A stretch of DNA of 64,000 nucleotides. Origin: Isoetes taiwanensis (Eukaryota; Streptophyta; Lycopodiopsida; Isoetales; Isoetaceae). Every line of letters begins with the position of its first letter. Position 1 is the stretch's first letter. Made by a program: the position numbers and the translations under genes. Shown one piece after another: positions 29,359-30,432 of the stretch. Under the pieces are notes generated by a model. That model ran no database searches, was not told the origin of the DNA, and saw only the letters and a list, made by a program, of their open reading frames with translations. The stretch lies in the NCBI GenBank assembly GCA_021234155.1, contig JAJEKV010000005.1, forward strand, positions 9,914,572 through 9,978,571, given 5' to 3'.

Positions 29359-30432
29359 ATGGCGCAGGTAGCAGCAGGTCGCCACGTCAAGAAGGTTCCG
29401 CCACACCTTCGACCGAAGCCGGGCGACGAGGCGTTTTCCTCCAGCGATGAGACCTTCCACGTTTCCCAGGAGGAGGGCGCAGGTAGCAGTAGCAGCTCTT
29501 CGTCGGCGGGCACCCAACGAACTGACGAATCCCGCCATTTTGAAGCCTCGACTGATGTGGAGGTGGAGCAATAGGAGGAGAACCAGGAACAGCCGCAGCA
29601 GCAGACCCAAGAGGCGGGCCCTTCGGCAGCAAAGAAGAAGGGCAAGAACAAGGTTGCAGAGTGGCCGGAGGACAGGGCAGCACGAAAGAAGAGAGAGAGT
29701 GAGCTGCTTGAGAAGGAGCGTAGAACTAAGAGGAGGAACGATCGGCCCCGAGGGACCGTAGTGATTGAGAAGCCTCCCCGATGCGAAGAAGAGGAGGTGG
29801 AGGAAGGAGGAGATGGCGAGGAAGACCCGGAGGAGGAAGACAACGAAGTCGTCGGGGAACCTTCAAACCCCGACGCAAGACCACCTTACCCGAAGTGGCC
29901 CACCCCACCCAAGGTGGTCAAGAAGCAGAAGGCCGGCGAGCGACCGTTCGCCCTGAGGGAGGAGCGCCTCTTCAGATGCCGCCTCAAGGCGTACGAAGAA
30001 TACCTCCGTCGTTGGACGAGGTATAACGACTGGTACTGCCGCCAGAACGTCCAGCGCTACGTGGAGGGGAGCCAACCGAGCAAGAACCAGCCCAAGCCTC
30101 TGCCGCCACGACCGGAGAAGCCCAAGAAGGCCCATCACGGGCCAAATTCTAGGCATGCCCGAGTTTTTCGGGAGATTAGGCACTTTCAACAGTGCACTAA
30201 TCTCCTGATTAGGAAGGCACCTTTCGAGCGGCTCATGCGGGAGGTGATGCAGGACTTCGTCACCGACTACAGGGTGACGTCGCTCACAACAAGGGTGTTG
30301 CAGGTTGCTGCGGAGGCCGAGCTCACCCAATTGTTCGAGGAAGGAAACCTCTGCGCGATCCACGCGAAGAGGGTAACGGTGATGCCCAAGGATTTGCACT
30401 TGGCATGCCAGATCCGCAAGGAATATCCTTGA
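29359..30432 (+). CDS. Histone H3-fold protein encoded in the retrotransposon (one internal TAG)
   Basis: The frame runs from ATG 29359 to TGA 30430 (357 codons) with one TAG at codon 72 (29572-29574). Residues ~263-357 are an H3 histone fold: FREIRHFQQCTNLLIRK (alpha-N/alpha-1), REVMQDFVTDYR (loop 1), LQVAAEAELTQLFEEGN (alpha-2) and CAIHAKRVTVMPKDLHLA (loop 2/alpha-3). More than half of the positions equal canonical H3, and the end falls where H3 ends. The spacing of loop 1 is that of H3, without the insertion typical of plant CENH3. In place of the short H3 tail there are about 260 residues: a Ser-rich start, a Lys/Arg segment (~90-125), an acidic block (~136-160) and a basic, Pro-rich linker. 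The canonical tail (ARTKQTARKS) is absent. Likely a nuclear, chromatin-associated protein; this function is inferred. The TAG is one C-to-T change from CAG. Confidence 0.9.

Follow-up and report, generated by a model that had tools for sequence, protein, structure and literature searches.

Capture of histone H3 genes by mobile elements is already in print for fungal hAT DNA transposons (PMC3538342, PMC6710886). In Pyrenophora tritici-repentis such transposons carry an H3-like gene, H3L, of which there are 26 (PMC3538342), and in Pseudocercospora, Cercospora and their relatives hundreds of H3-like copies lie inside hAT elements and were judged to be ancient (PMC6710886). Plant Ty3/gypsy retrotransposons are known to carry extra open reading frames (ORFs), classed by position as eORFs (Neumann 2019, PMC6317226) or described as aORFs (Vicient and Casacuberta 2020, PMC7264820); these are mostly without known domains, and an AlkB/2-ODD domain has been acquired by Gypsy elements of orchids (PMC9289625). 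Here we describe a Ty3/gypsy retrotransposon of the lycophyte Isoetes taiwanensis with an H3 gene, ORF1, ahead of gag. The window is the 64,000-nt stretch of contig JAJEKV010000005.1 that was analysed, and the window copy is the long terminal repeat (LTR) element at 27129-41827 within it; apart from the target-site duplications and a nested insertion, which are given without a strand, features lie on the plus strand unless stated otherwise.

Like the P. tritici-repentis transposons, the Isoetes element carries and multiplies an H3-like gene. It differs in being an LTR retrotransposon, whereas those of P. tritici-repentis are recent DNA transposons with terminal inverted repeats (TIRs), and hAT transposase is their hallmark; neither an insert between H3 tail and core nor a test of selection is mentioned in the accessible part of that account (PMC3538342). 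The Pseudocercospora and Cercospora copies are mostly truncated cargo inactivated by repeat-induced point mutation (PMC6710886), whereas the Isoetes frame is under purifying selection. As a sense frame that lies 5' of the polyprotein and exceeds 250 codons, ORF1 resembles other extra ORFs of plant Ty3/gypsy elements (PMC6317226, PMC7264820) and falls in the eORF-5'F class (sense frames of 250 codons or more on the upstream side of the polyprotein); it differs from most of them in having a known domain, the H3 core (PMC9289625). The orchid elements are alike in that a host-type domain has become fixed in a Ty3/gypsy element, and differ in that the domain is an RNA demethylase and the RNase H is dual, as in the Tat family (PMC9289625).

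Some viruses encode histones, among them the Marseillevirus and Medusavirus histones and bracovirus H4. ORF1 shares with these that a parasite encodes a core histone, the difference being that theirs are large DNA viruses and not retroelements; PDB entry 8ua7, a virus-histone comparison, was a non-significant match in our structure search (E 0.34). The word histone is absent from the main text of the aORF paper (PMC7264820), the I. taiwanensis paper (PMC8566536), the I. sinensis paper and a review of giant transposons (PMC6431247), and the accessible parts of PMC7264820, PMC6317226 and PMC9289625 make no mention of a histone gene in an element. Among the papers listed by searches of a library that leaves out most subscription papers and all preprints, none could be recognised from its title or the opening of its abstract as describing a retrotransposon that encodes H3.

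The ORF1 gene and its predicted product

In the window copy the body of ORF1 (29359-30432) contains a single in-frame TAG at codon 72 (29572-29574); the part after it, 29575-30429, is open and encodes 285 residues, the last 99 of which (30133-30429) are a histone H3 core running from alpha-N to the C-terminus. When the open part was analysed with hmmscan, residues 172-281 matched the Pfam Histone model with an E value of 9.1e-28 and 97 bits (cut-off 26), which rules out a chance or low-complexity match. A phmmer search of solved chains gave 176 sequences at E <= 0.001, and the best 60 were all H3 (top E 2.2e-28). The cores of 11 family copies are 60-66% identical to host H3 in a gap-free alignment that spans R49-A135. 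We also considered capture of a centromeric H3 (CenH3) for centromere targeting. CenH3 has a longer loop 1 than H3, and this candidate is ruled out by a loop 1 of canonical length in the ungapped alignment.

In most other copies ORF1 starts upstream of the position equivalent to 29359, with the H3 tail MARTKQTARK. To establish this, the residues that follow the tail were anchored and ten codons upstream were read, the tail itself being unused for selection. Of 30 fetched copies, 28 gave an anchored start and two (L022 and L026) did not. An ATG was present in 22 of the 28, with exactly MARTKQTARK in 15, one changed residue in six and MARTGETARR in L025, so that the tail ARTKQTARK is present in 21 of 28. 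The six copies with no ATG in the anchored frame include the window copy, in which a decayed tail (..SKQTARK) without ATG can be seen in another frame at about 29309-29338; in L016 a frame other than the anchored one carries an intact tail. Frames from the tail methionine span 330-376 residues in L031, L032 and L037, and in L041-L046, which were fetched from the fifth residue of the tail (Q or K), none of the six has a stop before the core ends.

After K9 the sequence is element-specific, for about 265 residues in L031, until the H3 core begins; the tail segment of H3 with K14, K18, K23, K27 and K36 is not kept in the copies read. Of 5076 candidate relatives of the insert in the protein collection, not one reached E 0.001. 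An AlphaFold model of the intact L031 ORF1 with 18 public proteins (mean pLDDT 58, pTM 0.24) has predicted helices at 284-298, 305-318, 323-346 and 362-371, in the places of H3 alpha-N and helices 1-3, and two helices in the insert (119-143 and 216-254) mostly with pLDDT of about 90. As judged from sequence, then, the core is an H3-type histone fold, and the low-confidence model agrees. We conclude that the predicted ORF1 protein of this family begins with residues 1-9 of the H3 tail and ends in a complete H3 core, the two being separated by an insert of about 265 residues.

That this gene belongs to the element is seen from its surroundings. The 5' LTR (27129-28742) and the 3' LTR (40187-41827) differ by a Kimura two-parameter distance (K2P) of 0.0176, and the target-site duplication CTTCC at 27124-27128 is repeated at 41828-41832. 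Inside them lie a primer-binding site (PBS) TGGTATCAGAGC at 28744-28755, which we take to be of the initiator-Met tRNA type, and a polypurine tract (PPT) at 40174-40186. A Pfam scan found Retrotrans_gag, RVP_2, RVT_1, RT_RNaseH, Integrase_H2C2 and rve in that order, gag thus preceding protease, reverse transcriptase (RT), RNase H and integrase (IN), and there is a chromodomain at the integrase C-terminus (PF00385, E 1.9e-11; best solved match the Chd1 chromodomain, E 4.1e-07). The window element is a Ty3/gypsy chromovirus, complete in outline. An earlier note on this DNA had read the end of the 29359-30432 frame as an H3 fold, and the frame as cargo of the element and not a neighbour; the Pfam and solved-chain matches bear out the first claim, and LTRs, target duplication, PBS and PPT the second. 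Its picture was incomplete in two respects: the likeness to H3 extends beyond the fold to the first nine residues of the tail, kept at the N-terminus, and the H3-carrying frame, though real, is broken in the window copy and belongs to a gene that starts upstream of 29359.

Copies, linkage and selection

The genome (1,658,258,908 bases in 1110 contigs) was searched with a 100-residue core query. The best 150 matches were all at least 90% identical, and nine of them had an internal stop; a second core query from another copy added 25 new loci to these 150, giving a union of at least 175 loci and ruling out a one-off capture. On the question of insertion close to existing copies the two lists disagree: among the 175 loci there were four pairs less than 20 kb apart, against 0.37 expected if uniformly placed, and the list of RT matches had none against 0.27 expected.

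Ten stretches of 9.9 kb were selected by way of their H3 matches, so the presence of the core in all ten is built in. Nine have LTR, leader and H3 in the order of the window, and the tenth, L040, has H3 and pieces of pol without an LTR match. Seven have a gag match further downstream and six a match to protease-RT, there being no gag match within L033, L037 and L040; where the parts are present their order is LTR, leader, ORF1, gap, ORF2, gag, pol. Linkage seen from the RT side is a fairer test. Comparison of the best 150 RT matches with the first H3 list gave 25 pairs in which H3 lies on the strand of the RT and at most 12 kb upstream of it, a lower bound given that only the best 150 matches of each were used, and 22 of the 25 had a spacing of 3.4-5.3 kb. 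The corresponding control pairs numbered two downstream and two on the opposite strand. Three RT loci without a listed H3 were also fetched, and two proved to carry the core (81% and 90% identical); three further RT matches in a systematic sample of 20 carry H3 according to the lists. One H3 core of 81% identity to the window core, in L068 (1006-1302, minus strand), branches before the other copies of the window family (family A), and its place in the core tree suggests a third sub-lineage.

These data bear on whether the frames could simply be a host family of H3-variant genes beside or inside retrotransposons. There are indeed many host H3 genes: with P0026, a plant H3, as query the genome yielded 15 host-like, canonical-like loci together with at least 135 further matches, mostly to the core only, many of which lie in open frames of more than 300 residues and up to 567. 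The eight host loci that were read (L047-L054), however, are canonical, short and uninterrupted, and the core follows LTR and leader in 9/10 stretches, precedes gag in 7/10 and keeps its narrow spacing from RT. We therefore regard a host gene family as an exceedingly improbable explanation. As a separate observation, position 77 is E (AQEF) in the eight host genes and D in the plant and algal cores P0014, P0026 and P0033; E is also found at this position in 26 of 36 window-family copies.

The ratio of nonsynonymous to synonymous differences per site (pN/pS) was low in the core. Pooled over 36 copies, pS was 0.553, pN 0.028 and pN/pS 0.051, with ratios of 1.93 and 8.53 in shifted-frame controls on the same copies; the ratio was 0.042 in nine long copies. 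Elsewhere, in six or seven copies each, it was 0.279 for the insert, 0.203 for the C-terminal part of ORF2, 0.286 for protease and 0.078 for RNase H. The ratios for RT (0.332) and IN (0.244) were set aside as they include an L037 match from another element, with pN near 0.47, as was that for a second gag segment (0.370), to which L036 and L038 contribute pN of 0.14-0.35. For tail codons A1-K9 the ratio was 0.086 in 21 in-frame copies, L025 with its MARTGETARR start being excluded. Thus the core is the most constrained coding stretch scored, and we conclude from these ratios that tail and core are under strong purifying selection. Within L031-L039 the pS of the core (0.58) is above that of the ORF2 C-terminal part, protease and RNase H (0.35-0.39, overlapping sets of copies), which could be explained by recombination between element lineages or by fast synonymous change.

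One rival explanation is that ORF1 is passive cargo, a transduced host H3 hitch-hiking as in the hAT elements of fungi. Transposons do capture H3 (PMC3538342, PMC6710886). Ratios of 0.04-0.05 at a synonymous divergence above 0.5, with shifted-frame controls of 1.9 and 8.5, and the presence of the gene in two diverged families both argue against this, and we consider it very improbable. A further explanation is that ORF1 acts outside nucleosomes as a soluble decoy, sequestering H4, chaperones of H3 or the methylating enzymes for K4 and K9, with weaker silencing of the element as the result. Residues A1-K9 are the recognition stretch of the K4 and K9 enzymes, and it is this stretch that is kept; in tails of this form H3 position 10, S in the host, is occupied by F, P, V or A, and other sequence takes the place of the remaining canonical tail. 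To trap the methylating enzymes a tail peptide alone would be enough, yet among the parts scored it is the whole core that is most constrained, and the sister family described below does without ARTKQTARK. We think it unlikely that ORF1 acts in this way.

A second family and the other parts of the element

Five non-host matches to P0026 were fetched and form a second family, family B, in which ORF1 starts with MAITK, MDITK or MAIIK and has an N-terminal part of about 310 residues followed by a core 84-86% identical to host H3. The start of ORF2 follows this ORF1 in L056-L058, and L059, one long family-B stretch, has ORF2, gag and pol with a chromodomain in the same gene order. Its pol is 74-75% identical to that of the window over residues 348-928 and 59% over residues 1-348. 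The ORF2 proteins of the two families are homologous (21%, E 2.6e-14), and no similarity could be detected between their ORF1 N-terminal parts (best E 1.5). In the five family-B copies pN/pS was 0.070 for the core and 0.218 for the first 200 residues. The earlier note had named, as outcomes that would undo its reading, a lack of the frame in other copies and neutral evolution; neither was found, given the at least 175 core loci, the 25 upstream RT-H3 pairs and the low pN/pS in both sets of copies. Its description of H3 as cargo of this one Ty3/gypsy element stands and has to be widened, the trait being common to a second family.

A search of public proteins found at least 300, and of 28 examined ten begin exactly with MARTKQTARK, continue with a long insert and end in an H3 core. 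Public protein P0015 matches family-B ORF1 over its whole length (42.6%) and groups with family B in the core tree (100/97), a tree built on 99 columns with few firm forks; used as a genome query it gave 110 scored candidates, many with N-terminal domain and core. A query with P0038 gave 5657 proteins at E <= 0.001, the best 120 of which (label ena) were 82-100% identical over at least 95%; its layout had 107 matches in the I. taiwanensis genome, nearly all to the core only, and of 262 pattern matches to P0038 relatives in viral contigs none held. We conclude that both ORF1 layouts are present among public proteins.

The position of the gene suggests another role, in which ORF1 together with host H4 would coat the cDNA or sit with Gag in the virus-like particle. 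ORF1 is upstream of ORF2 and gag wherever this was seen, in both families, and most copies compared keep the residues that we take to be the DNA contacts of H3 (R49, R63, K64, R69, R72, R83, K115 and T118). Against packaging, a Pfam scan of the insert of one copy found no gag-like domain, and to our knowledge other chromoviruses manage without an H3 gene. This role seems to us quite unlikely.

ORF2 encodes a protein of about 505 residues upstream of gag and is fully open in L041 (610-2130, minus strand) and L044 (1839-3350). Pfam and PDB searches with it gave no useful match (one Pfam row, E 6.1), and an AlphaFold model with a mean pLDDT of 29 was useless; the idea that ORF2 is a second histone before gag thus gained no support from the Pfam and PDB searches. 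In the window copy only a C-terminal remnant is present (31000-31632), lacking about 300 N-terminal residues and having an in-frame stop at 31210-31212. Two strong hairpins lie between ORF1 and ORF2, at 30646-30716 and 30847-30917; they are 87% identical, with folding energies of about -40 kcal/mol each and z scores of -7.5 and -4.7. Similar sequence is present in 21 of 43 loci examined and in none of five family-B loci; the hairpins may have a part in packaging or in translating the ORFs that follow. An Rfam scan of 27000-42000 gave zero matches.

The gag of the window copy (Retrotrans_gag / Ty3_capsid, 31912-32929) has a frame broken near 32562. Protease, RT, RNase H and the first part of integrase follow at 33107-35896, and the C-terminal part of integrase with the chromodomain is at 38570-39361. 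The integrase frame is split by a nested insertion (35887-38564) whose 34-bp terminal inverted repeats are 94% complementary. Elsewhere in the window, frames at 10210-10869 (plus strand) and 45622-46362 (minus strand) share the stretches ELFKSWLSHF and LIILD(D/G)HGS and resemble pieces of DDE transposases.

Possible roles of ORF1

Between R49 and A135, 31 of 87 sites differ between the window family and host H3, and the changes are not spread evenly. In the segment 79-102, which we take to contain loop 1, part of the H4 interface and the 87-90 patch read by chaperones, 13 of 24 sites differ (p 0.044). In 103-131, presumably the H3-H3' contact and the face bound by ASF1, only 5 of 29 differ compared with 26 of 58 elsewhere (Fisher p 0.017). 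Such a pattern would fit a protein that still pairs and yet is handled differently. In family B, 13 sites differ from host H3 with no regional pattern (p 0.75 for 79-102).

Given how little selection has let the H3 parts change, it is very probable that these elements act on host chromatin through ORF1. The best explanation for the gene, which we consider about evenly poised between true and false, is that ORF1 pairs with host H4, enters nucleosomes and there displays its insert, for anti-silencing or for docking of integration. On this account a chromovirus lineage would have acquired an H3 coding sequence long ago, and the captured sequence would have become a resident gene, placed between the PBS and ORF2, the other extra gene in front of gag. 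The ORF1 protein would be made in the host, its core would pair with host H4 and enter (H3-H4)2 tetramers or nucleosomes, and the insert would thereby be displayed on chromatin. The element would gain either by keeping its own DNA from silencing or by docking its integration complex, two uses that are inseparable here. A wider form of this proposal, which we advance only tentatively, is that chromoviruses of an ancient, widely distributed clade, in lycophytes and perhaps in further eukaryotes, encode a nucleosomal H3 variant with a long element-specific segment. Deposited in host chromatin, this variant would let the parasite write nucleosomes of its own, thereby escaping silencing and marking sites of integration.

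Several observations weigh against incorporation of ORF1 into nucleosomes. With 13 of 24 sites changed in 79-102, pairing with H4 is likely and at the same time uncertain, and the family-B core has no excess conservation of 103-131 (p 1.0). In the L031 model the core blocks have a pLDDT of only about 46-69, and Foldseek matched nucleosomal H3 with E 5e-05 at a TM-score near 0.3; because of these low values the Foldseek matches rest on sequence more than on geometry. As ARTKQTARK is missing from family B, not every lineage requires the tail. To us the chromodomain of the window element seems to be of the type that lacks a full aromatic cage, which makes doubtful a loop from K9 methylation of ORF1 to the element's own integrase. 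Tail and core are in one open frame in only seven of the 30 fetched copies, and one of the three fetched RT loci has no core in the part that was read, from about 3.7 to 5.15 kb upstream. Copies entered the pN/pS sets as top protein matches or long open frames, a choice that favours conserved copies. Finally, the window copy has a broken ORF1 and lacks most of ORF2 despite being fairly young by its LTR K2P; either these genes broke after insertion, or copies move without an ORF1 product of their own.

Silencing of retrotransposons works through histone H3, and in plants chiefly through methylation of K9. An element that encodes and conserves an H3 of its own, in one family with K4 and K9 in place, would be a parasite that turns to its use the very protein that controls it. 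Such elements make it possible to test directly if mobile elements can write nucleosomes, and they supply H3 variants that have been moulded in nature by the needs of a parasite and not by those of its host.
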